Source of the DNA: an uncultured Kiloniellales bacterium
GTDB lineage: Bacteria; Pseudomonadota; Alphaproteobacteria; Kiloniellales; JAKSDN01
Direction: 5' to 3'
Length of the DNA: 52,034 nucleotides
NCBI GenBank assembly: GCA_947258885.1
Contig: CAMYKD010000005.1
Span: 1-52,034, forward strand
Part shown: positions 3,023 through 44,250 of the stretch, piece by piece
Numbering within the stretch: the first letter of the stretch is position 1
Layout of the letters: every line of letters begins with the position of its first letter
Notes under the pieces: generated by a model
Database searches by the model: none
The model's input: only the letters and a program-made list of their open reading frames with translations
Told to the model about the DNA's origin: nothing
Translations under genes and position numbers: made by a program

Positions 3023-5491
3023 TCACGCCGGCTCGTACGCCCGCAGTAGCGTCCTTCGGAACCCGATGGAAACGGCTGCCGGGATCAGCAACACATAACA
3101 CGACGCAGCCACGATCAGCGTGATGTCTATGCCGTATGCGATGCTGCAGGCAACCGCGAGGGAGGAGGCGAGCACTCCTGCCGCGCCGTTGATGCCCCAG
3201 AACCAGGGGGTCGGCTTGCCATCCACCGCGGATATCAAGCGCATGCCGGTGGGAAACCCGTAACCCATGAGCAGCCCGGCGGGGGCAATCAACAGGACAC
3301 AAAGCGATGCGCGCGCCAGCAAGGAGGCACTTTCTAGGCCGGACAGAACGTCCGGCAACCAAAGGGGCAGGGCGAAAAGATATCCCCCCGTCAGCAGAGA
3401 CCAGAGCAGCAGCTTTCTCCAATCGTCCAGGGGCCACCGGTCCGAGATCATGCTGCCGATGCCGGTCGCCAGTATCAAGGAGAACAGCACGATGCTGAGC
3501 GAATATATGGGATGTCCCAGGAAAACGCCCATACGCTGGAGAAGACCAATCTCCGCGCACATGAACCCGACCCCGATCAGGAAGAAGTAGGCGCTGCCGC
3601 CGACGGCAAGCCTGCGGCCAACGTCCTTGATCGCCGGCCGCAATGGCAAAACGATCGCCGCCACCACCAGCGCAATAGACAAGACGAAGAGCTTTACCAG
3701 GGTCAGAGTCGCCGTCAGGTTTCCCGCGACGACACCATTCTGCCGGGGGTTGCGGGAGCCAGTGGCCGCAAAGATCTTCACCGCCTCGGAGAGCCGCAGC
3801 TGGTTGAAGAAGAACGGCCGGTTATCCGTTGGTGGCGTGAGATCAAGATGGAGGCTTGAGGTATAGCGGTCCAGTTGGGTCGGGTTGGCGCTGGCGACGA
3901 TCTCCCGCAGAACCCGGGAGGCGGGTTCCGCATCTGGCGCGATGAGCACTCCGTATCCCATGTCGGCCACGACATCCTTGAGCACGGCGATACGCTCCGG
4001 TGAAAGCGGCGACCGAGAAAACACCAGCGTCGCGATCGCGCCGGTGCTAGCGAGGAAGATATGCCGACTCGGCTCGGGCAGACCCATGTCGAAGGCCGCC
4101 GCCATCGCCAAGCTGACCATGCGGCCGGTCTCCTCGATTCGATCGGGTGAGTACCAGCGGCTGACCGTGAACAAGCCGTCCGGCGTTAGGCGCCGGAGAA
4201 AGATTCGCCATCCCTCCACCGTGTAAAGGCCGTTTTCGCTTAGGGTGAAGGCTCCGGCCCCCGTGGCGGCCCAGGTGTCGATCAGGCTCATCTGGATGAT
4301 GTCGAAGGCCTTGTCGCTCCGCGCGAACCAACTCCTTGCTTCATCCACATGGTAGGTGATCCCCCTGAGGTCCGCGAGGCCGGCGAATTCCATATACCCC
4401 GGCTCCTTGGTCAGAAGCCGGATCATGATGGGGTTGATTTCCACGCCCGTGACCTCGGAAACGCCGAAAACGCGGGCGCTGAGGATGTCGCGTCCGCCAC
4501 CCACGCCGATGATCGCCGCGCTGTCCAGACCGGGCAGATGGTAGGGCAGGTTGGTTATGTCGTACCGCAGGAAATCGGCTTCGCGTACATCGCCGCTAAA
4601 CCGGTAGGCTGCGGTCCCGGCGTCACCGTCGATCAGCACCATGCGTTGTCCGACGCGCAAGTCGCCGGCGCGGAACTCCGGGGCTGGCCCCCACATCTTG
4701 GGTGCGGTCACGCCGTCGTCGGTGACCGTGACCCGGGAGTAGGAATTCCACCGGTCGAAGATCGGTCGGTTCTTGCCCAGCTCGGAGACCCCCTTGACGA
4801 AGAGCGGACGGAGGCGATGCTCCGACAGACCGTTCCCGGCGGCGATCAGGACCAGGACCAGCATTACCAGGCCGCAGCGTCGCGGCAGGAACGCCAGCGG
4901 CGGCGGCGATTTCGGCGCCGTGCCAATGCCGGAGCGGACAAACAGCAGGGCCGCCGCCGCCGCGGTCGCGCTGATCCATAGCACCGCGGAGGGCGCATCG
5001 GTCACGTTCAGCACCGCAAGTACGCCCAGACAGCCGAGTGCAGCACCAGCCAGATCAACGCCATACACGCGACCGACCGGATAGGGGCTGCGGGTCAGCG
5101 CCAGACTGACGACCACGCCGGAGAAGAAGAAAGGTATCGACAGGCAGGCCAGCAATGCGGGCCAGGCCAGCCAATTGAGTAGGCCGCCGCCGTGCAGCGG
5201 AAGCGCCATCTGAATGACGAGGGAAACGGCGGTCGCGATCGCGAAGGCGACACTGAAATAAGCGAGATCATGGGAAAGAGTCGCCTGGGTGAAGCGATCG
5301 CGGCGAAGATAGACCCAAACCGCCCCCGCCGTCAGCCCGAACATGCCGACGCTAATGACGAAAAAGGCCAAATGATACCAAGTGACCGCCGAAAGGATAC
5401 GCGTCTCGACCACCTGCAACATCAAGGTCGCCAGGGTGACCAAGAAGACACCGCCATAAAATCGTAACGACCCTTTTCTGTTGGTAACCAT
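3023..5491 (-). CDS. large membrane protein with spermidine-synthase-like domain
   Basis: 822 residues from the ATG at 5491, which is preceded by AAAGGACCAAG; an ATG 84 bp upstream is less likely. Hydrophobic N-terminal segments span about 10-190. A soluble central domain then carries a class I methyltransferase/spermidine-synthase nucleotide site at about 325-355 (GVGGGRD, then VTGVEINP) and a motif of the GAGAFTLSEN type, and several more membrane segments fill about 600-822. Related fused proteins are common in proteobacteria, but whether they make polyamines is not established. A WNSYSRV motif ahead of the nucleotide site is also shared with that group. It stands alone between hpnB and a PhyH gene, all on the minus strand. 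Confidence 0.8.
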   Translation of the reverse strand: MVTNRKGSLRFYGGVFLVTLATLMLQVVETRILSAVTWYHLAFFVISVGMFGLTAGAVWVYLRRDRFTQATLSHDLAYFSVAFAIATAVSLVIQMALPLHGGGLLNWLAWPALLACLSIPFFFSGVVVSLALTRSPYPVGRVYGVDLAGAALGCLGVLAVLNVTDAPSAVLWISATAAAAALLFVRSGIGTAPKSPPPLAFLPRRCGLVMLVLVLIAAGNGLSEHRLRPLFVKGVSELGKNRPIFDRWNSYSRVTVTDDGVTAPKMWGPAPEFRAGDLRVGQRMVLIDGDAGTAAYRFSGDVREADFLRYDITNLPYHLPGLDSAAIIGVGGGRDILSARVFGVSEVTGVEINPIMIRLLTKEPGYMEFAGLADLRGITYHVDEARSWFARSDKAFDIIQMSLIDTWAATGAGAFTLSENGLYTVEGWRIFLRRLTPDGLFTVSRWYSPDRIEETGRMVSLAMAAAFDMGLPEPSRHIFLASTGAIATLVFSRSPLSPERIAVLKDVVADMGYGVLIAPDAEPASRVLREIVASANPTQLDRYTSSLHLDLTPPTDNRPFFFNQLRLSEAVKIFAATGSRNPRQNGVVAGNLTATLTLVKLFVLSIALVVAAIVLPLRPAIKDVGRRLAVGGSAYFFLIGVGFMCAEIGLLQRMGVFLGHPIYSLSIVLFSLILATGIGSMISDRWPLDDWRKLLLWSLLTGGYLFALPLWLPDVLSGLESASLLARASLCVLLIAPAGLLMGYGFPTGMRLISAVDGKPTPWFWGINGAAGVLASSLAVACSIAYGIDITLIVAASCYVLLIPAAVSIGFRRTLLRAYEPA

Positions 5492-5655
5492 CTTGGTCCT
5501 TTGACCCTCCGGCATGCGCCCGACCCTCTTGGCCCGCGTGGCAAAGAGCGCAGGGGGCCAGATAGTGCAGAGCAATCGGTTAGGAAGCGATTAAGCCCCG
5601 GAAAGGCCTAGCCTAGTGCGGAGCGGCGCCATCGCAGCTGAGGGCCGGTCTGTCG

Positions 5656-30447: not shown

Positions 30448-31845
30448 TCAGTTTGGGGCTGGCCCTCTGTTCGCCAGGCGCTCCGCGCTTCGGCGGCGCA
30501 GGCGGGCCTCCAGGCCGGCCAGTTTTGCTTCGATCGCAGGGCCGATATGGATCTGTGGCCGGGACGGCGTGAGACCCTCGCGCTTTTCACGCTCCGTGAT
30601 GGCCTCTCTGGCATCGTGGAAGGCCTTGACGAAAGAGAACTCCTCGCGGAGCTGTTCCTTGAAATAGGCTTGGCCGAAATAGGTGAAGTCGTTGAGGTTG
30701 CTGCAGCCGAACGACTTCCTGTCGGCGCGCGCGGCGGTTATGATCACGGTGTTTTCGTCCTTGAGAGTATCGACGAACCCGCCCGAGTAACAGGCCGAGA
30801 CCACCAGAACCCGCCACTTGATCCCCGAGCGGTCGAGCATCTCCTTCAATTTCGTCGCGGCAAGACCGTTGAGGCGAAGAGGCCAGAAGTTTGTCGAAAG
30901 CACTTGTTTTCGTGATCCGTGCGAGGTCAGGAACAGGAACAGTACGTCCTCGTCCCGGTCGATCCGACGAGCTATGCCGTTCAGTGCGCGCCGAAGGTTG
31001 CTGGCGCTGGCCAGAGGTAGGTCCTGGACCGTCGCCCGGTTGTTTACCAGCATGACGGAGCGGTCCGTCGTGTCGAAGCGGTCGTCGAACAGCCGTCTGA
31101 CGAAGCGCACCTCCTTCATGAAGACGTCCTGATAGGCGGACCCGCCGAAACCGACGAAATAGAGGTCGGTGACACCGGGCCGCTGGGCCGCCAGGGCCCC
31201 GGTCACTTGATCGAGCAGGTCCCGCTGGGCGTCGTAGGTGTCCTCGACATTGACCCGGACACGGTCGGACGGCTCCGTCGCCGCGACGGTGCTGTACCAG
31301 AGCCGTTGTTCGGGGAGCCCGAACCGGGGGGCGAGATTGCAGACGGCATAGACCAGGACGAGCGCCGCCGCCCGGCCGATGTTCGCATTGTAGAGCAGCC
31401 TCACCGCACGGAAGACCACGGCGAGCAGCCAAGAGACCCAGACGAGGAATACCGTCCAGGCTGCCACGTACGAACTGCTCTCGGCGGCCATTTCGCTGAG
31501 CCACCTCAAGACGGCGACGGCGGAGAGCATGAGCGGACCGGCCGATGCCAAATAGACCAACAACGCGCCGCCGGTCCACGACGCCCCCTGGATCCGGGCC
31601 ATGAGGTACACGCTGAAAACCAACAGCAAATAGAACGTCGCCGCGTGGCTGAGGCCGTAGACGTTGAATCCACGTTCCGGTTCGGTGGAAACGAAGCCGT
31701 ACCCGAACGAAAGGGCAAATCCCGTGAGGAGAAGCAAGACCGCTTGGTCGATGCTGACCCTAAACGAGTCTTGCCGGACCGGGAGCATGAGGGCGAGCCG
31801 GGCGCCCGCGATGATGTTGCCGATCACGTCGCGCAAATGGTTCAA
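30448..31845 (-). CDS. membrane-anchored C13 (legumain/caspase-like) cysteine peptidase
   Basis: 465 residues. Four or five hydrophobic segments (about 34-53, 66-83, 92-116, 129-149, 158-172) precede a soluble C13 domain. The dyad is visible: His309 in FLFLTSHGSR and Cys352 in LVVSACYSGGFV, followed by VIITAARADRKSFGC. Bacterial C13 peptidases are poorly characterised. The C-terminus ends in a basic, coiled-coil-like tail (KLAGLEARLRRRSAERL). It stands alone and its promoter region contains no firm sigma-70 match. Confidence 0.82.
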   Translation of the reverse strand: MNHLRDVIGNIIAGARLALMLPVRQDSFRVSIDQAVLLLLTGFALSFGYGFVSTEPERGFNVYGLSHAATFYLLLVFSVYLMARIQGASWTGGALLVYLASAGPLMLSAVAVLRWLSEMAAESSSYVAAWTVFLVWVSWLLAVVFRAVRLLYNANIGRAAALVLVYAVCNLAPRFGLPEQRLWYSTVAATEPSDRVRVNVEDTYDAQRDLLDQVTGALAAQRPGVTDLYFVGFGGSAYQDVFMKEVRFVRRLFDDRFDTTDRSVMLVNNRATVQDLPLASASNLRRALNGIARRIDRDEDVLFLFLTSHGSRKQVLSTNFWPLRLNGLAATKLKEMLDRSGIKWRVLVVSACYSGGFVDTLKDENTVIITAARADRKSFGCSNLNDFTYFGQAYFKEQLREEFSFVKAFHDAREAITEREKREGLTPSRPQIHIGPAIEAKLAGLEARLRRRSAERLANRGPAPN

Positions 31846-35725: not shown

Positions 35726-35871
35726 TCGCGGGGCCTCCCGCCGCGCACTGTTTCCTTCGGGCGGCACGCCCGTGCCGCGGCAATCCTTGAAACGACGGGT
35801 GAAGCGCTACAAGTGCTGCAGCAAGCCTATTTTATAGTATGGCTCGAACGAGGTGGCTATGCTGTCTTGAC

Positions 35872-37125
35872 ATGAGCTCGGAAACCATCGGCGATATCGA
35901 CGGCCGCGCTTCGGACGCACCGGACGCCGCCCAGCGGGAGGCACGGCTGGCGCGCTTGAGCCTGCGTTACAACGACATGCTGCGCTCGGCTGTCGGCTGG
36001 CTGTGGGAAACCGATGCGCGGCTGAACCTGACCTATGTTTCGCCGCCGATCGCGACCACCCTGGGCGTTCCGGCGCAGATGCTGATCGGGCGCAACCTGC
36101 TCCACCTGTTCGGCCTCGAGGAGGGCGAGCGTGCCAGTGGGCGCATGGCCGCGGCCATCGCCGCGCGCCGCTCGTTCCGCGACGAGCACTTCGTGCTCGA
36201 TATGGGCGAAGGCCTCAGGACGAGCTACCGGATCACCGGCGTTCCCTATTACAACGAGACCGCCGGGCGCTTCGCTGGCTATCGCGGAACCGGCACGGCG
36301 ATTCCCGAGTCGCTCGACGCCACCACCGAGGACGCCGAGACCGCCGGGCAGCTCTTGGAAATGCTCGAGGACGCCTTGGCGCACAAGGACCAGCTCGAAT
36401 GGGAGATCTCCAAGGCCGGGGACGAATCGCTTCAAATCCGTCTGGCCGGAATCGCGCACGAACTGCGCACGCCGCTCAATGCCATTATCGGCTTTGCCGA
36501 AGTGATCAAGGAACGCCAGCTGGGTGACGACTGGAACCGCTACCAGGACTACGCATGCAACATTCACGAGAGCGGCCTGCACTTGCTCGAGGTGATCAAC
36601 GACCTGATCGACCTCGCCAGGATCGATAGCGGGCACAAGAGCCTGCAACCCGAACGGCTGGACGTGGAGCCGATCGTCGCCAGCGCGCTGCGCATGCTCG
36701 AAGACAAGGCGCAGGAAGCCGAGGTGCTTCTGGTCAACAGCCTGGCGTCCGGCACGCCCTGGGTGAACGGCGAGCGCCACGCGCTGCGGCAGATCCTGCT
36801 GAATCTGCTTACCAATGCAATCAAGTTCACGCCGGCCGGGGGCACGGTCGGTGTCGAGTGGCAGGCCACCGACATCGCAACACTCGACCTGATCGTTTGG
36901 GATACCGGTGTCGGGATCGACCCGAAGGACCAGGAGCGGGTCTTCGAGAGATCCTACCGGGCGCCCCAAAAGAACCTCGAGCGGCCGGGCAGCGGCCTCG
37001 GCCTGTCGATCTCGCGCAATCTGGCCCGCGCGATGGGCGGCGACATCGTCATTTCGAGCCAGCCCGGCGAGGGCTCGCGCGTAACGCTACGACTGCCGCT
37101 CGATCCGAATCCGTCGGGACCGTAG
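35872..37125 (+). CDS. soluble PAS-domain histidine kinase, PleC/DivJ/PdhS-like
   Basis: 417 residues from ATG 35872; an ATG 33 bp earlier would add 11. N-terminal PAS-like sensor (about 30-150, WLWETDARLNLTYVSPP, LIGRNLLHLFGLEEGE), then the dimerisation helix with phosphoacceptor His196 in IAHELRTPLNAIIGFAEV, and a HATPase domain with NLLTNAIKFTP, VWDTGVGIDP and GSGLGLSISRNLARAMGG. The H-box region resembles the PleC/DivJ group that signals to DivK and CtrA. No membrane segment and no adjacent response regulator. Confidence 0.9.
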   Translation: MSSETIGDIDGRASDAPDAAQREARLARLSLRYNDMLRSAVGWLWETDARLNLTYVSPPIATTLGVPAQMLIGRNLLHLFGLEEGERASGRMAAAIAARRSFRDEHFVLDMGEGLRTSYRITGVPYYNETAGRFAGYRGTGTAIPESLDATTEDAETAGQLLEMLEDALAHKDQLEWEISKAGDESLQIRLAGIAHELRTPLNAIIGFAEVIKERQLGDDWNRYQDYACNIHESGLHLLEVINDLIDLARIDSGHKSLQPERLDVEPIVASALRMLEDKAQEAEVLLVNSLASGTPWVNGERHALRQILLNLLTNAIKFTPAGGTVGVEWQATDIATLDLIVWDTGVGIDPKDQERVFERSYRAPQKNLERPGSGLGLSISRNLARAMGGDIVISSQPGEGSRVTLRLPLDPNPSGP

Positions 37126-37713: not shown

Positions 37714-38340
37714 TCAGCGTGCGGCCGGCCTGACGGCCAAGGCCGTCCGCCGGGCGTCGGCCAGGAAGCGGTCGAAGATCTCGGCAACGGCCAGATTCAG
37801 GGCCACGATCGAGGCGTCGACGCTGTCCGCTCTGCTGGGCCGCTCGACAGCGTAGCTCTGGAGCACCAACAGGCGGTCGTCAGCCAAGCCGATCAGGGCC
37901 AGCTCAAGCTCGACAAAGACGCGAGGCGCGCCGCCACCGAGCAGCCGCTCGAAGCGCTTTATGCGGCCTCTGACCTCGAAATCCGGCCGGACCCGCATGT
38001 CCGGCGTGACCACCGATTGGGCGATCCTGCCCTGCCGGAGATAGTCGACCAGCTGTCCCTGCAGCAACCGGGTCGGCGGATCGGTCCAGTAATGGTAGTC
38101 GTGCTGCTGCATTTCGTGGGGTTGCCCCGAGGCACTGAACAGCAGCGGCCGTTCACGCAGAAGCCCGTCGGCCTCCAGGGGCGGCACCGAAACGATGCCG
38201 GGCAGACGTCGGTCCGCCGACCCGGCCCGTGGGGCCGCTATCAGGATCCTGTAATAGTGATCTCGCGGGAGCGGCGGGGCCGAGCCCAGGCAGCCGGCCA
38301 GCGCCGAGGCGGCGAGCGTCAAGAGGACGAGCCGCATCAT
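37714..38340 (-). CDS. PqiC/ABC-type transport auxiliary lipoprotein
   Basis: 208 residues with a lipobox LAGC (Cys17), so probably lipid-anchored. The body matches the DUF330/PF03886 group (HYYRILIAAPRAG, PDFEVRGRIKRFERLL), outer-membrane partners of MCE lipid-transport systems. It overlaps mlaD by 4 bp (ATGA) and is the last gene of the operon, so it likely contacts the MlaD ring from the other membrane. Confidence 0.87.
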   Translation of the reverse strand: MMRLVLLTLAASALAGCLGSAPPLPRDHYYRILIAAPRAGSADRRLPGIVSVPPLEADGLLRERPLLFSASGQPHEMQQHDYHYWTDPPTRLLQGQLVDYLRQGRIAQSVVTPDMRVRPDFEVRGRIKRFERLLGGGAPRVFVELELALIGLADDRLLVLQSYAVERPSRADSVDASIVALNLAVAEIFDRFLADARRTALAVRPAAR

Positions 38341-39359
38341 TGGACCACGCCGTTGCCGGTTTCGGGCTGGGACGAGACCTCCTCGCGCGGCGTGCCGTTC
38401 AGCAACAGACCGGGGTTCTGCCTGATGAGCCGGCTGAACTCGTTCATATTGCGCGTCGCCCCTTCGAGATTGTGAACCAGCGTATCGATGTTCCGCGCAA
38501 TAGCGCCTAGCGTGTACCGGGCATCCGTCAATGACAGTTGAACATCGTCCCGGTTGTCGTCCACCAGCCCGTCGAGGTTGGCAACCAGTTGCTCGATCTC
38601 GGCTACGCTCCTGGTCAGCTGCCGGCTGGCCGTCGCGAAATTTCGCGAGCCTTCCTCGGCGTTCCCGATGAGGCTTTCGACTGCGGCGGCGTTCTTGCCG
38701 GAGAGGACCCGCTGCACCGCTGCCGCGCTCGAGTCCAGCCGCGCGACGACGACGGCGACTTGGTCGAGCACCGCCGGCACGCGGCGCTCGATCACCAGGG
38801 CAAGCGAATTCATGGTGCCGAGCAATCGTGGCAAGTCTTCGTCGAGCGTCTGGCCGGTGCGCTCCACGAGGTCCGCGATCCTGCCGAACAGCGGCCTGAC
38901 GCCGTCGCGGCTCAAGTCGCCGAGCTCCCCCGCGGCTGCCGCCATGGCGGCGAAGACATCGCTCGGCGCCCCGCCCGGGATCTCGCCGCCGCTCGGGACC
39001 GTCGTCTCCGAGCGGCCGCCTTCTATATCCACGGTCTTGGCGGACAGAAAGTTCGTGCTGCCGATGCGTGCGGTGCTGTCGACCGGGATTCGCCAGCCCT
39101 GGTCGATGCTGAGCTTTAGGCGAAAGCGCATGCGCGCGCCCTTCGCAAGCGGCGCGATTTCTTCGACCTGGCCGACGGGATAGCCGTCGTAGCGCACCTG
39201 GGTTCCGAAATTCACGTCGGCCACGTTGTCCAGCACCGTGAAATAGGCGTCCCGCGCGCCCATCCGCCCGGCGAGCAGCGCACCCGATATCACCGCCGCC
39301 AAGACCATGGCGGCGACGAACCCGCCGACGGCGAGGTAGTTCAGGTCGTGCTTCCGCAT
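38337..39359 (-). CDS. mlaD: MCE-domain protein MlaD-like
   Basis: 340 residues from ATG 39359 (GTGAGGAC upstream). One N-terminal membrane helix (about 9-32), an MCE domain (about 38-115, with ADVNFGTQVRYDGYPVGQVEEI and FLSAKTVDIEGG) and a long helical C-terminus (about 130-320) that in MCE rings builds a lipid-conducting channel. It is much longer than E. coli MlaD. It binds or passes phospholipid across the periplasm and contacts MlaE. Confidence 0.9.
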   Translation of the reverse strand: MRKHDLNYLAVGGFVAAMVLAAVISGALLAGRMGARDAYFTVLDNVADVNFGTQVRYDGYPVGQVEEIAPLAKGARMRFRLKLSIDQGWRIPVDSTARIGSTNFLSAKTVDIEGGRSETTVPSGGEIPGGAPSDVFAAMAAAAGELGDLSRDGVRPLFGRIADLVERTGQTLDEDLPRLLGTMNSLALVIERRVPAVLDQVAVVVARLDSSAAAVQRVLSGKNAAAVESLIGNAEEGSRNFATASRQLTRSVAEIEQLVANLDGLVDDNRDDVQLSLTDARYTLGAIARNIDTLVHNLEGATRNMNEFSRLIRQNPGLLLNGTPREEVSSQPETGNGVVQ

Positions 39360-39404
39360 GTCCTCACCAATGCCTGGCTCCCAGCCCATTCCGACCCATC
39401 GGCA

Positions 39405-40247
39405 CTATGCCCCTCCCGCCAACCGGCGCAGGTACCCGGCCGGATCGACCTCGGGATCCTCGGGGCGGCGGTTCAGCAGATTCTGGATGCGCCGACTCGG
39501 GTTTCCGCGCAGACCCTCGGCCGAATCGACGGCCAGCACGCGGCCCCGGTCCAGGACCGTAATCCGATCCGCGATCTTGAATGCGCTTTGCATCTCGTGG
39601 GTGACCACGACGATGGTCATGTCCATGGCTTGGCGCAGGCGGAGGATGAGATAGTCGAACGCGGCCGCGACAGCCGGGTCGAGTCCCGCCGAAGGCTCGT
39701 CGAAGAACAGCAGCTTGGGATCCAGCACGATGGCGCGCGCGACCGCGGCGCGTTTCAGCATGCCGCCCGACAGTTCCGACGGCATGAGATCGCCGGTGCC
39801 GGCCAGATCGACCACCTCCAGCTTCAAGCGCGCGATGATGTCCATCGTCGTCTCGTCCAGTTCGGCGTGTTCGCGCAACGGCAGCTTCACGTTCTCGGCC
39901 ACGGTCATCGAGCTGAACAGGGCGCCGCCCTGGAAGGCCACGCCGATCTGACGGCGCAGGCCGGCCAGCTCCAAGGGGTCGAGCCGGGACAAATTCCGGC
40001 CGAGTACGGTCAGGCTGCCGGCGCTCGGCGATTCGAGCCCCAGCAGATGGCGCAGGAGCGTGCTCTTGCCCGACCCGCTGCCGCCCATGATCACCATGAC
40101 CTCGCCGGCCTGCACGGTCAGGTTCACGTCGAACAGGACCTGCACCGGCCCGTAATGCGCGTCCAGATGGCGCACCTCTACGACCGCGGCGCCCTCGGGC
40201 ACGGCCGCCGACCGGGGACCGGGACACGGGGAACCAGGCGCGCTCAT
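39405..40247 (-). CDS. mlaF: Mla-type ABC ATPase MlaF
   Basis: 280 residues. Walker A GGSGSGKST, VAFQGGALFSSMTVAENV (Q-loop), signature ELSGGMLKRAAVARA, Walker B LLFFDEPSAGLDP and switch His in VTHEMQSAF. SGGMxKR and DEPxAGLDP are MlaF-type. It powers the MlaE permease. The N-terminal 20 residues are Pro/Ala/Gly-rich and not conserved. One bp separates it from mlaE and 45 bp from mlaD. Confidence 0.93.
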   Translation of the reverse strand: MSAPGSPCPGPRSAAVPEGAAVVEVRHLDAHYGPVQVLFDVNLTVQAGEVMVIMGGSGSGKSTLLRHLLGLESPSAGSLTVLGRNLSRLDPLELAGLRRQIGVAFQGGALFSSMTVAENVKLPLREHAELDETTMDIIARLKLEVVDLAGTGDLMPSELSGGMLKRAAVARAIVLDPKLLFFDEPSAGLDPAVAAAFDYLILRLRQAMDMTIVVVTHEMQSAFKIADRITVLDRGRVLAVDSAEGLRGNPSRRIQNLLNRRPEDPEVDPAGYLRRLAGGA

Positions 40248-40248
40248 C

Positions 40249-41037
40249 CTACTGGGTCACCACGAAGGCGAAGATCATGTCGGTCACGACGATCGCCGAA
40301 ATGCCCTGCACCACCGACCGCGTTGTGGCCCTGCCGACGCCTTCCGCGCCGCCCGCGACCAGGGAGCCGTTGACCACGCCGACCAGCACGATCAAGACGG
40401 CGAACAAGGCGCTCTTGCCCAAACCGTGCCAGAGGTCGCCGGGCGAGAGCACCGCGATGGTTCCCGAGAGATAGGCCGCCATGGAAAGGTCGAGCGCCGC
40501 GGACACGTAGAGGCCGGCGGCCGCCAGGGCCACGAGGTTCGCCCACATGGTCAGCACCGGAAGCATGACCACCAAAGCAAGCAGCGCAGGAGCGACCAGG
40601 AAGCGCACGGGATCGATGCCGATCACCTTGAGGGCATCGAGTTCCTGGTTGATCGACATCGTGGCGAGGCGCGCCGCCAGGGCGGAGCCGGAACGCCCGG
40701 CGACCAGGATGCCCATGATCAGGGGCGAGAACTCCCGCGTGACCGACAGGGCGATCCCCACATGGGCCAGGGATTCCGCGCCGAACAGGCCCAGCGAATA
40801 GAGGCTTTGAATGGCCAGCATGAGACCCACCGTGGCCGAAAGCAGGGTGGCGATCGGCAGCGCCAGGATGCCCATTTCCGTCATCTGGGCCGCCACGGCG
40901 GCCAGGCGCACCGGCTGCCGCCAGCGCCGGCCAGCGAAGATCCAGCGCAGCGACTGGCCCAGCAGGGCCGCGGAATAACCGATCTCGTCCAGGCTCCGGA
41001 CGGCGCCGCGGCCCAAGTTCTCGATCCCTCGCAGCAC
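40249..41037 (-). CDS. mlaE: Mla-type permease MlaE
   Basis: 262 residues from GTG 41037, with GGAGGGG about 10 bp upstream; the frame is open further upstream through the STAS gene but that part is antisense-like and unconserved. About five membrane helices. The signature loop ILVAGRSGSALAARLATMSINQELDALKVIGIDP is the MlaE family element that docks on MlaF. Directly follows the STAS gene by 20 bp. Confidence 0.93.
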   Translation of the reverse strand: MLRGIENLGRGAVRSLDEIGYSAALLGQSLRWIFAGRRWRQPVRLAAVAAQMTEMGILALPIATLLSATVGLMLAIQSLYSLGLFGAESLAHVGIALSVTREFSPLIMGILVAGRSGSALAARLATMSINQELDALKVIGIDPVRFLVAPALLALVVMLPVLTMWANLVALAAAGLYVSAALDLSMAAYLSGTIAVLSPGDLWHGLGKSALFAVLIVLVGVVNGSLVAGGAEGVGRATTRSVVQGISAIVVTDMIFAFVVTQ

Positions 41038-41057
41038 GCTGAGGCGCCCCTCCGGGT

Positions 41058-41384
41058 CTAGGACGCCAGCGCCGCATCGAGATCGGGGTGGATCGCGAAG
41101 ACCTTGTCCAACCGCGCCAGCTCGAAAACGCGCATCGCTTGGACGCTGGCCGAGAACAGCTTGAGCGCGGTCCCGTTCCTCGCCGCAATCTGCATGGCCT
41201 CGACCAGACTCGCGATCCCGGAACTGTCCAGATATGACACGTCCGAGAGGTCGACCAGCAGGTCCTTGCCGTGGGACACGCCATCGAGCAGCAGGCCGCG
41301 AACCGTGGTGCAATGCTCCAGGTCCACGTCGCCCGACAGCTTGACGACGACCTTGCCGTCGATTTCGCTTACTTCGTCACGCAT
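41058..41384 (-). CDS. STAS-domain protein (RsbV-like, candidate MlaB)
   Basis: 108 residues, whole length STAS. Asp53-Ser54-Ser55-Gly56 (LDSSG) contains the phosphorylatable Ser of anti-sigma antagonists. The terminal helix (VFELARLDKVFAIHPDLDAAL) is typical. It lies 6 bp after an RsbW-like gene and 20 bp before mlaE. From the RsbW side it should be the kinase substrate; from the Mla side it occupies the place of MlaB, the STAS subunit of MlaFEDB. Which role, or both, cannot be decided from sequence. Confidence 0.9.
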   Translation of the reverse strand: MRDEVSEIDGKVVVKLSGDVDLEHCTTVRGLLLDGVSHGKDLLVDLSDVSYLDSSGIASLVEAMQIAARNGTALKLFSASVQAMRVFELARLDKVFAIHPDLDAALAS

Positions 41385-41390
41385 TCCGGG

Positions 41391-41846
41391 TCACTCCAAC
41401 CGTTTCATCAATCGCAAGAGGTTGCCTTGGCCGTCCGGGGCCGGCTTGTATTCGACGCTGTCCATGATCGAGTGGATGAAATGGGTGCCGAGCTGGCCCG
41501 GCCTCACGTCGTTCAGATCGCGCGGCTTGATCCCCGTGGGATCCATCGGCGGCGCGAAGTCGCGCAACAGCAGGACCATGCCGGCCTGACAGCGGAAGAC
41601 GGCAAGCACGACCTCGCCGTCCTCGTCGTTCCGATAGGCGTGGACAAGGATGTTCTTGCAGGCCTCGTCGAGCGCAAGGACGATGTCCCGGGCGTCCGTC
41701 TCGCCGAAACCACAGTGCCGGGCCCCGGCCAATACGCTGGCACGGACCTTCTTGAGCACCTCGAGCCTGGCGGCAAAGCGTTGCTCGAACAGCAGCTCGA
41801 GCGGGGCGGGCTCCAGGGTGTCGTCAAAGGGCGCCGTACTAGTCAT
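41391..41846 (-). CDS. RsbW-like anti-sigma/STAS kinase
   Basis: 151 residues from ATG 41846, overlapping the phosphatase stop by 8 bp. HATPase_c_2 fold with N-box ALDEACKNILVHAY (Glu, Asn and His present). The G1 region reads RDFAPPMDP rather than DxGxG, and the G2 region reads GTHFIHSIMD, so nucleotide binding may be altered or use variant loops. In the classical scheme it phosphorylates the STAS protein and sequesters a sigma factor; no sigma gene is nearby. Confidence 0.87.
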   Translation of the reverse strand: MTSTAPFDDTLEPAPLELLFEQRFAARLEVLKKVRASVLAGARHCGFGETDARDIVLALDEACKNILVHAYRNDEDGEVVLAVFRCQAGMVLLLRDFAPPMDPTGIKPRDLNDVRPGQLGTHFIHSIMDSVEYKPAPDGQGNLLRLMKRLE

Positions 41847-43077
41847 GGCGGCTGACCCAGGCATCGTCGATGGCGAGCACGGTGAGGTCGTCCCGGGCTT
41901 CCCAACCTTCGTGATCCAATTCCGCCAGCAGGGCGTTCAGCCGCTCCGCGAGAGGCAGGTCTGCGTGGCTTTCGACCAGCTGGATCAGGCCTTCGACGCC
42001 AAGCGCCTCCTGTTCGCCGTAGCGGTACTCGGTGAGGCCGTCGGTGAAGATGTAGAACTCGCCGCCGGCCAGCTCGATCCCGTGAGTCTCGAACGTGAGG
42101 TCCGGCAGGATCCCGAGCGGCGGCGCCTCGGCCGGGAAGGACCGGTAGCTTCGGTCGGGCGCGCGCAGCAAGGGCGGCTCGTGGCCGGCATTGGCAAACC
42201 AAAGCGCGCCCGTCTCATGGTCGTAGATGCCGGCCACCATGGTCACGAACATGCCGCGGCTCGCCGTCTCGCAGGTTTCGCGATTGATCGCCGCCAGGAG
42301 GTCCGCAGGATCGTCGTAGGTCTTGGCCAGGCAGCGGAACAGGCCGGCCGCCTTGGCCATCAGCAGGGCGGCGTTCATGCCCTTGCCCGACACGTCGGCC
42401 AGCGCGAAGGGGATGCGCCGCTCGTCGAGAGGAAAGAAATCGAAGAAATCCCCGGACACCAGGCGGGCCGGCCGGTTGAGGCCGACCACCGGGAATCCGG
42501 CCGGATCGGCATGCGGCAGAAGGTTGCGTTGGATCTCGGCCGCGAGTTCCAGATCGCGGCCGACGCCTTTCTGGCAGTCCAGCGCATACGTCAAGCGATC
42601 GTTCGAAATGGCGAGCGCGGCCGCGCCCGCGGCCGCCGCGAGGAGTCCGGACTCGTCGGGCGTGAAGGCTCCGTTACGCTTGTTCGCCACCGCCAGCACC
42701 CCCAGGCGGTTGCCGTTCAGGGTGAGCGGTGCGCAGAGAAGCGAATGCCAGGCGCTGTCGCCGCAGCGCAGCGGGTCCTGATAATCGCACTCGACGGTGC
42801 CGTGCTCGAGACAGCGGGCGAATAGAGGGTCGCCCTGGGGGACGAGACCGCCGATAGCCCCCATGGAGCCGCGGCAGAACAGGGCCCCGTCGTCCGCGGT
42901 GAGAAACAGTCCGGCCGCCTCGGCGTCGACAGCTCGGAGAATGCCCGCCAGCAGCGACGATAGGGGGCCCTCCAGATCCAGCGATACCGCGAGATCCCGG
43001 CTGAACGCAGCCAGGACCCCCAGGGGATCTGAAACCGCTTCCTCCAGCGGCAGGGCCGTATTTCGTCTAACGGACAT
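41839..43077 (-). CDS. GAF-SpoIIE (PP2C-type) serine phosphatase
   Basis: 412 residues. GAF domain (about 25-165) for ligand sensing, then a helical linker (AAEIQRNLLP) and a SpoIIE/RsbU phosphatase domain (about 190-408) with metal-ligand motifs VSGDFFDFF, LADVSGKG, IFTDGLTEYR and RDDLTVLAI. It should dephosphorylate the downstream STAS protein. First gene of the operon, divergent from the CtrA-like regulator. Confidence 0.93.
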   Translation of the reverse strand: MSVRRNTALPLEEAVSDPLGVLAAFSRDLAVSLDLEGPLSSLLAGILRAVDAEAAGLFLTADDGALFCRGSMGAIGGLVPQGDPLFARCLEHGTVECDYQDPLRCGDSAWHSLLCAPLTLNGNRLGVLAVANKRNGAFTPDESGLLAAAAGAAALAISNDRLTYALDCQKGVGRDLELAAEIQRNLLPHADPAGFPVVGLNRPARLVSGDFFDFFPLDERRIPFALADVSGKGMNAALLMAKAAGLFRCLAKTYDDPADLLAAINRETCETASRGMFVTMVAGIYDHETGALWFANAGHEPPLLRAPDRSYRSFPAEAPPLGILPDLTFETHGIELAGGEFYIFTDGLTEYRYGEQEALGVEGLIQLVESHADLPLAERLNALLAELDHEGWEARDDLTVLAIDDAWVSRHD

Positions 43078-43536
43078 AGGAACAACTTGGCTGACTGACA
43101 GGGTGGTTGCCCTATAGAGCCTAGTTGAAAAGTATTAACTACCTCTTGGCGGCCGCCAAGTCCGGGAACCGGTCGCATGACGCTTCGCCGTGGCCGAGCC
43201 GTCAGGTGACGCGAACACACAACTCGGGCCCGGCCGCGCGGCAGCCCCGAACGGACACGGAACGATTCCGCTTTCTTCTTCAGTCGTTTGACAGGAAGAA
43301 CCGGACATTCCGTGCCAAGGACCGTCGTACGTAACCTCCCGTATGCGCGGTCCCTTACGTAGTTTTCCGAATTGTCCATGGTTAACGGGCGATGGATCTT
43401 CCCGCCTGACGATCCGGTCGGGGACCGCGGTTCCCGGCCAAGGAAAACTCGAGAGCCGACACGAAAGCGGAGCGGGGCTGTCAGGGTCCCAGGGTGCGGC
43501 GCGGAACTCTCGTTGAACCCGGACCAGGAGGTGGCC
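43078..43536. other. divergent regulatory region between phosphatase and CtrA-like gene
   Basis: 459 bp without a supported gene. It holds a perfect 16-bp palindrome CTTGGCGGCCGCCAAG (43145-43160), an AT-rich stretch (about 43112-43140) that may be the operon promoter, and GGTTAACG near 43379. I could not assign definite -10 or -35 hexamers. Confidence 0.6.
43145..43160. promoter_or_regulatory. 16-bp palindrome, candidate operator
   Basis: CTTGGCGGCCGCCAAG, 68 bp upstream of the phosphatase start. GC-rich palindromes occur by chance in such DNA, but a perfect 16-mer in this divergent gap is notable. Confidence 0.4.
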
Positions 43537-44250
43537 GTGCGCACACTACTCATCGAAGACAATGCCTTGCTGGCAACGAGCATCCAGAAGATGCTGAACT
43601 CGGCGCACATCATCTGCGACACGGCCAACACGGGCGAGGAGGGGACCGAGATCGCCCGGATCTACGACTACGACGTCATCCTCCTCGACCTCACGCTACC
43701 CGACAGTCACGGTTTTGACGTGTTGCGACGGCTTCGCCGCGGCGGGGTCAAGACACCGGTCGTGATCGTTTCGGGCTGCGCGGAGCTGGACGGCAAGATC
43801 AAGGCCCTGAAAATGGGGGCCGACGACTACCTGACGAAGCCCTTTCAAATGCGAGAGCTGATCGCCCGAATTCGGGCCATCGTGCGGCGCGTCAGGGGCC
43901 ACAGCGACCCGGTCATCCGCACCGGCAGACTGTCGGTGGATTTGACGGCGCGCGTCGCCAAGGTGGACGACCGGCCTTTGCCGTTGCCGCCCAAGGAGTA
44001 CGCGATACTCGAGCTCCTCTCGCTGCACAAGGGGCGGACGCTCGACAAGACGACCTTTCTCGACCACCTCTACGGCGGGGTCGACGAGCCCGATCTCAAG
44101 ATCATCGACGTCTTCATCTGCAAGCTGCGCAAGAGGCTGAAGGCCGCGACCGGGGGCGAGCACTACCTCCAGACGGATTGGGGTCACGGCCACATGCTCT
44201 GCGACCTACCGCCAAAGACCGCAGCCCACGAGGCCCCGGTCACAGCGTGA
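43537..44250 (+). CDS. CtrA-family response regulator (OmpR/PhoB type)
   Basis: 237 residues from GTG 43537, preceded by AGGAGGTGG; a longer frame upstream is not coding-like. Receiver (about 1-118) with phosphoacceptor Asp in VILLDLTLPD, SGCAELDGKIKALKMGADDYLTKPF, then a winged-helix domain. The region from EYAILELLSLHKGRTLDK through HLYGGVDEPDLKIIDVFICKLRKRL is CtrA-like, including the DNA-recognition helix. The end (DWGHGHMLCD instead of the usual WGRGYVL) is diverged. Probably a CtrA paralogue rather than CtrA itself. Confidence 0.87.
   Translation: MRTLLIEDNALLATSIQKMLNSAHIICDTANTGEEGTEIARIYDYDVILLDLTLPDSHGFDVLRRLRRGGVKTPVVIVSGCAELDGKIKALKMGADDYLTKPFQMRELIARIRAIVRRVRGHSDPVIRTGRLSVDLTARVAKVDDRPLPLPPKEYAILELLSLHKGRTLDKTTFLDHLYGGVDEPDLKIIDVFICKLRKRLKAATGGEHYLQTDWGHGHMLCDLPPKTAAHEAPVTA

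Follow-up and report, generated by a model that had tools for sequence, protein, structure and literature searches.

The locus and its gene products

A stretch of 52,034 nucleotides from an uncultured Kiloniellales bacterium (contig CAMYKD010000005.1; the whole stretch is referred to as the window in the following) contains seven densely packed minus-strand genes at positions 37714-43077, in which the components of a putative partner switch are joined to those of a lipid transporter of the Mla type. From start to end, the operon encodes a GAF-SpoIIE phosphatase, an RsbW-type kinase, a STAS protein, MlaE, MlaF, MlaD and a PqiC-like lipoprotein:

41839-43077, minus strand: GAF-SpoIIE (PPM-type) serine phosphatase, 412 amino acids, proposed ON switch (Pfam SpoIIE 1.8e-42, GAF_2 3.7e-10)
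41391-41846, minus strand: RsbW-type serine kinase (HATPase_c_2), 151 amino acids, proposed OFF switch (Pfam 6.7e-25)
41058-41384, minus strand: free-standing STAS protein, 108 amino acids, RsbV-like, proposed MlaB equivalent (Pfam STAS 3.9e-16)
41217-41228, minus strand: D-S-S-G codons of the STAS protein, residues 53-56 (from the reading frame and the alignment to SpoIIAA and RsbV)
40249-41037, minus strand: MlaE permease, 262 amino acids, GTG start (Pfam 6.2e-61)
39405-40247, minus strand: MlaF ATPase, 280 amino acids, conserved C-terminal Y-L-R-R-L (solved relatives are MlaF proteins)
39414-39437, minus strand: motif GYLRRLAG at the C-terminus of MlaF (residues 271-278), proposed to correspond to the helix in the E. 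coli C-terminal extension
38337-39359, minus strand: MlaD/MCE-domain protein, 340 amino acids, long C-terminal part (Pfam MlaD 1e-11)
37714-38340, minus strand: PqiC-like lipoprotein (ABC-type transport auxiliary lipoprotein), 208 amino acids (Pfam PF03886 1.5e-10)

An earlier note on this DNA had named the seven genes together with their coordinates, spacings and identities, all of which are borne out by the reading frames and Pfam; each of the seven proteins scores above the curated Pfam cut-off (in bits: SpoIIE 146, GAF_2 41, HATPase_c_2 88, STAS 59, MlaE 206, ABC_tran 108, MlaD 45, ABC_trans_aux 41). The genes of phosphatase and kinase overlap by 8 bp with the kinase ATG at 41846 (26 bp if the in-frame ATG at 41864 is used), followed by gaps of 6 bp between kinase and STAS, 20 bp between STAS and MlaE, 1 bp between MlaE and MlaF and 45 bp between MlaF and MlaD (with the MlaD ATG at 39359; 15 bp if the start is 39389), and a 4-bp overlap of MlaD and the lipoprotein. 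Translation of MlaE starts with GTG at 41037, preceded by the ribosome-binding site GGAGGGG, which renders a plain permease of 262 residues lacking a fused STAS domain. A promoter scan found nothing, and the Rfam and tRNA scans remained empty.

Both enzymes of the putative switch have retained their catalytic residues, as counted over the collected loci (113-116 sequences, near-duplicate loci included). The acidic metal-site motifs SGDF, ADVSGKG, TDG and DD of the phosphatase are kept in at least 111 of 113 sequences, and the ATP site of the kinase, whose nearest solved structures are RsbW (1.7e-17) and SpoIIAB (4e-10), is intact, with Glu and Asn of the N-box, Asp of the G1 box and the GxLG glycines being invariant (116/116). 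The window kinase is the only HATPase_c_2 protein above the cut-off in its genome. Of the 92 loci having both phosphatase and kinase, 60 encode the two within one continuous reading frame, and Pfam recognises GAF, SpoIIE and HATPase_c_2 in a single protein at L051, L080, L106, L111, L125 and L171. A fusion of kinase and STAS at the single locus L085 was not used, as it might be a sequencing error. At two further loci (L172, L173) an RsbW-type kinase adjoins an ABC ATPase that belongs to a different type, which may represent another way of linking kinase and transporter.

The predicted phosphosite of the STAS protein is Ser54 in the motif Y-L-D-S54-S-G, the first residue after Asp, corresponding to Ser58 of SpoIIAA and Ser56 of RsbV in the alignment and to Thr52 of E. 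coli MlaB (PMC7367683). This position is occupied by Ser in 114 and by Thr in one of the 115 sequences. The nearest solved structures are TM1442 (1.2e-19), RsbV (1.2e-13) and SpoIIAA (1.7e-11). Within its genome the window gene is the only free-standing STAS gene; two other MlaE proteins have a STAS_2 match encoded in frame with them (one of these matches falling short of the cut-off when the whole protein is scanned), and the plasmid collection contained no match to the STAS protein. In family f66 (L133, L134, L162, L163), two tandem STAS genes are located between the kinase gene and mlaE.

Judged by homology, MlaE, MlaF and the MCE protein MlaD form an Mla/MCE lipid ABC transporter. The solved relatives of MlaE are those of Pseudomonas aeruginosa (3e-26), Acinetobacter baumannii (5e-23) and E. 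coli (3e-21), and the window protein falls into one clade with the other cassette MlaE proteins (97/97); MlaF is related to the solved MlaF of A. baumannii (2.1e-53) and E. coli (1.5e-50), with the Walker Lys present in 106/106 and the Met of the Mla-type signature in 101 of 104 sequences. MlaD also matches Mtu_fam_mce (1.9e-23, under the cut-off). The E. coli-type NCBIfam cut-offs are missed by MlaF (194 vs 441 bits), the MlaE family (182 vs 212) and MlaD (42 vs 135), and the transporter should therefore be regarded as a relative of Mla rather than as canonical Mla. The C-terminus of the cassette MlaF carries the motif Y-L-x-R-L, the Tyr, Arg and second Leu of which are each invariant in the 98 sequences with letters at these positions, and which is absent in the paralogous MlaF proteins inspected. 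In E. coli, the C-terminal extension of MlaF places Tyr261, Leu265 and Leu266 at the interface with MlaB (PMC7367683); the Tyr and the +4 Leu of the cassette motif match this spacing in our own comparison, which is not an alignment result.

Conservation of the gene order

Loci were gathered by kinase similarity alone, blind to their neighbours; 80 loci from a scan of GTDB contigs and those from further genome searches yielded 95 distinct loci. In genomes related to that of the window, all strong kinase matches occur within the identical gene order. The earlier note had considered a gene order not conserved in relatives as speaking against its proposal; mlaE follows downstream of the STAS gene, with the order retained, in 88 of the 90 loci offering room for it. 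The same holds for the other genes in distinct loci with room: mlaE together with mlaF is found in 84/84, mlaD in 78/78, the lipoprotein in 71/72 and the phosphatase in 90/92. The 80 GTDB loci stem mostly from Alphaproteobacteria (mainly Rhodospirillales, Kiloniellales, Pelagibius, Magnetospirillum, Magnetovibrio and Terasakiella), and the cassette is present in other classes of Pseudomonadota (for example, L252) as well as in four metagenome-assembled genomes of Deltaproteobacteria/Myxococcales, which bear the label Myxococcota in the trees. Culturable carriers of the cassette include Magnetovibrio blakemorei MV-1 and strains of Paramagnetospirillum, Terasakiella and Pelagibius marinus. Since the order recurs across orders and phyla at a protein identity of only about 34-70%, the arrangement is far beyond chance. 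Phylum-wide the cassette is rare; a kinase match at 1e-18 occurs in 12 of 398 genomes, some of these not representing this cassette. Nine genomes (the window genome and eight others) contain 27 mlaE loci. At 8 of these, a free-standing STAS gene and a kinase gene both adjoin mlaE, and neither of the two was recognised beside the other 19.

Several variant arrangements retain the connection of kinase and STAS to mla genes. Locus L247 (6506-11130), belonging to another class, is a tight operon in the order rsbW-STAS-mlaF-mlaE-mlaD-mlaC-spoIIE. Its MlaF, ending in AYLQRL, falls within the clade of cassette MlaF proteins (95/95; inner group 97/93), whereas MlaE groups with canonical MlaE (100/99, on a long branch), MlaD is short and MlaC canonical. 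MlaF thus seems to be passed on together with the switch, and the permease and MCE components to have been exchanged; the extent of this exchange is provisional, as the trees were built without gammaproteobacterial Mla proteins. Two related Alphaproteobacteria with divergent MlaE (L157, L158) contain kinase, STAS, mlaEFD and the pqiC lipoprotein gene, and in family f194 (L251, 6309-10452; L253, 211-4317) the order is mlaE, an open reading frame, mlaD, a further open reading frame, kinase and STAS. In L251, the frame between mlaE and mlaD encodes about 243 amino acids without a Pfam match, appearing by eye ATPase-like without Walker motifs; the further frame after mlaD in f194 is a TPR or other protein, and in L251 UbiD comes after STAS.

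Comparison with known systems

The window MlaF, MlaE and MCE protein are homologous to the solved MlaFEDB complexes of E. coli and A. baumannii, and a STAS-domain partner is likewise co-encoded, with Ser or Thr where MlaB has Thr52 and with an MlaF C-terminal extension bearing equally spaced Tyr and Leu residues. In contrast to MlaFEDB, the window STAS protein is RsbV-like and accompanied by a kinase and a phosphatase, MlaD comprises 340 amino acids, a PqiC-like lipoprotein is present and no MlaC was found among the window proteins scanned. The Mpc system of Brucella (MpcEFDA) combines MlaE, MlaF, a long MlaD and a PqiC-like lipoprotein in a single operon as well, but there the STAS domain forms part of MpcE, and neither kinase nor phosphatase has been described (PMC12436622), whereas STAS is a separate gene in the window; STAS-fused MlaE loci also exist in the window genome (L020, L021).

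With RsbU-RsbW-RsbV and SpoIIE-SpoIIAB-SpoIIAA the window shares a phosphatase, a kinase and a STAS protein predicted to be phosphorylatable, all with the key motifs; it differs in that the module resides inside a transporter operon and no sigma factor was found nearby. In agreement with the earlier note, Pfam scans of window proteins brought no sigma factor to light, the search having been confined to these proteins. SypE of Vibrio fischeri, acting on SypA, unites kinase and phosphatase in one protein, as in many of the cassettes (PMC8256260), and unphosphorylated STAS represents the active output, as is proposed for the window protein. The target of SypA is not known (PMC8256260), whereas a candidate target of the window STAS protein is encoded next door.

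A probable partner switch acting on a transporter

The sequences provide all the parts of such a circuit, their conserved active-site residues and linkage, and the co-inheritance of MlaF, STAS and kinase. E. coli MlaF depends on MlaB for its association with MlaE; the T52E variant of MlaB binds MlaF more weakly, and with T52A the complex is assembled without detectable ATPase activity (PMC7367683, PMC5016091). Transferred to the window, these findings suggest that the unphosphorylated STAS protein licenses MlaF, the kinase switching the pump off and the phosphatase switching it on. We therefore regard it as quite probable that the operon encodes a partner-switching circuit with a lipid ABC transporter as its output, in which unphosphorylated STAS would act as an MlaB-like activator of MlaF. 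The STAS protein would sit on MlaF as MlaB does in E. coli, permitting assembly and ATPase activity of MlaFED, which together with the PqiC-like lipoprotein would move lipids between inner and outer membrane. Phosphorylation by the RsbW-type kinase of Ser54, which would be placed in the MlaF-STAS interface, would shut transport off, and the GAF-SpoIIE phosphatase, sensing a signal, would strip the phosphate and restore transport. The phosphorylation itself, the binding of STAS to MlaF, the sign of the switch, and the lipid substrate and its direction are matters of inference. Binding of STAS to MlaF is favoured indirectly by the invariant C-terminal motif of MlaF as well as by L247, where it is MlaF, and not MlaE or MlaD, that stays with STAS and kinase.

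The interpretation of the earlier note, that the STAS protein couples a phospho-switch to the lipid transporter, is thus supported; two of the outcomes it had listed as telling against this were looked into, namely the gene order discussed above, which is conserved, and a separate MlaB, which is not recognisable in the genome. Mean-field coupling of STAS with each partner over 92 complete loci gave top z values of 9.8 for MlaF (STAS column 68, MlaF column 98), 9.7 for MlaE, 8.6 for the phosphatase and 8.1 for the kinase, with the periplasmic controls MlaD and PqiC at 7.1 and 6.4; at an effective number of 58, these sequences are too few and the values are not relied on.

Several observations weigh against such a circuit. 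In sequence, the STAS protein is nearer to RsbV and TM1442 than to MlaB, MlaB proteins matching at 1.5e-4 and weaker, and the NCBIfam MlaB model scores it with 23.6 bits (cut-off 90); it should therefore not be classified as MlaB, even if it possibly functions in the same way. E. coli T52A is inactive although it binds, so that Thr52 may serve a purpose other than regulation as well. The fourth, canonical MlaE of the genome has no STAS domain and no STAS gene nearby, so that a STAS partner is not required by all transporters of this kind. A read-through model of STAS, MlaE and MlaF (L079, a modelling device) reached a predicted TM-score (pTM) of 0.51, with MlaE poorly modelled and the docking unresolved. 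L157 and L158 lack an adjacent phosphatase, and L051 and L110 carry phosphatase, kinase and STAS without adjacent mlaE, the neighbouring gene resembling, as judged from its sequence, an ABC ATPase of another type in L051 and a glutathione transferase in L110.

The two latter loci, along with L248 (kinase and STAS without mlaE), could be taken to mean that the switch acts on another target, such as a sigma factor, an enzyme or a regulator, and that the transporter is merely co-expressed. We consider this unlikely, given the mlaE linkage in 88 of 90 loci, the other mla arrangements with kinase and STAS (L247, L157/L158, L251/L253) and the fact that no sigma factor came up when window proteins were scanned; it would also leave the transporter without a STAS subunit despite the motif in MlaF. 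Alternatively, the kinase could be the direct effector, the free form binding and inhibiting MlaF or MlaE, with unphosphorylated STAS only titrating the kinase. This would follow the classical RsbW/RsbV logic and suit the RsbV-like sequence of the STAS protein, and a read-through model of kinase and STAS (L169), which also counts in favour of the circuit preferred above, is moderately confident without settling the docking (pTM 0.74, predicted local distance difference test score 82; run without a control or coordinates, about 0.5 pTM being our own estimate for undocked domains). However, MlaF retains the invariant C-terminal segment, the E. coli counterpart of which packs at the interface with STAS, and in other Mla-type transporters a STAS subunit is employed directly (PMC7367683), so that a kinase effector seems unlikely.

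The STAS protein might also be a constitutive MlaB-like subunit, the kinase/phosphatase pair being degenerate or acting elsewhere. E. coli MlaB works without a known kinase, and Thr52 appears to have a role beyond phosphorylation, T52A being inactive though bound (PMC5016091). Yet the ATP-site residues of the kinase are invariant and the acidic residues of the phosphatase nearly so, and in the nine genomes no free STAS gene stands beside mlaE without a kinase gene as well, which makes a constitutive subunit very improbable. The phosphorylation-controlled transporter accordingly remains our preferred explanation.

Neighbouring genes

The genes flanking the operon in the window lie, on sequence comparison, outside the conserved unit. 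A histidine kinase (35839-37125) and an OmpR-type response regulator (about 43516-44250) flank it, with close matches mainly in the nearest genomes. The neighbouring response regulator, histidine kinase and methyltransferase were rejected as parts of the operon, their close matches being confined to the two nearest genomes, with the exception of a 51% histidine-kinase match in L226. Elsewhere in the window, a protein with a C13 (legumain/caspase-fold) peptidase domain (1.4e-26) is encoded at 30451-31845, and positions 3026-5575 contain an open frame of 850 amino acids without a Pfam match at 1e-5.

Implications

Taken singly, the parts of the operon are familiar; what appears to be new is the way in which they are combined, the putative output being a transport machine. 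Full-text searches of a limited collection retrieved no paper containing MlaE, SpoIIE and STAS together, and no title or abstract among the papers listed describes such a coupling. The MlaFB structure paper leaves the regulation of active MlaB open and names phosphorylation as an untested possibility, no kinase having been identified (PMC7367683; see also PMC5016091). The presence of kinase, phosphatase and STAS inside the operon of a transporter, an arrangement preserved across a broad span of evolution, makes the question of phospho-control of MlaB directly testable. It is probable that these loci represent a widespread class of phospho-switched MCE transporters, in which a kinase and a phosphatase, often as one bifunctional protein, would reversibly modify an MlaB-like subunit and thereby control lipid flow post-translationally, the trio of MlaF, STAS and kinase being movable between transporter types, as suggested by L247. 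If this is true, partner switching would gain a transport machine as an output, non-canonical STAS proteins, the targets of which are mostly unknown, would gain a concrete kind of target, and the cell could switch the lipid flow between its membranes by phosphorylation.

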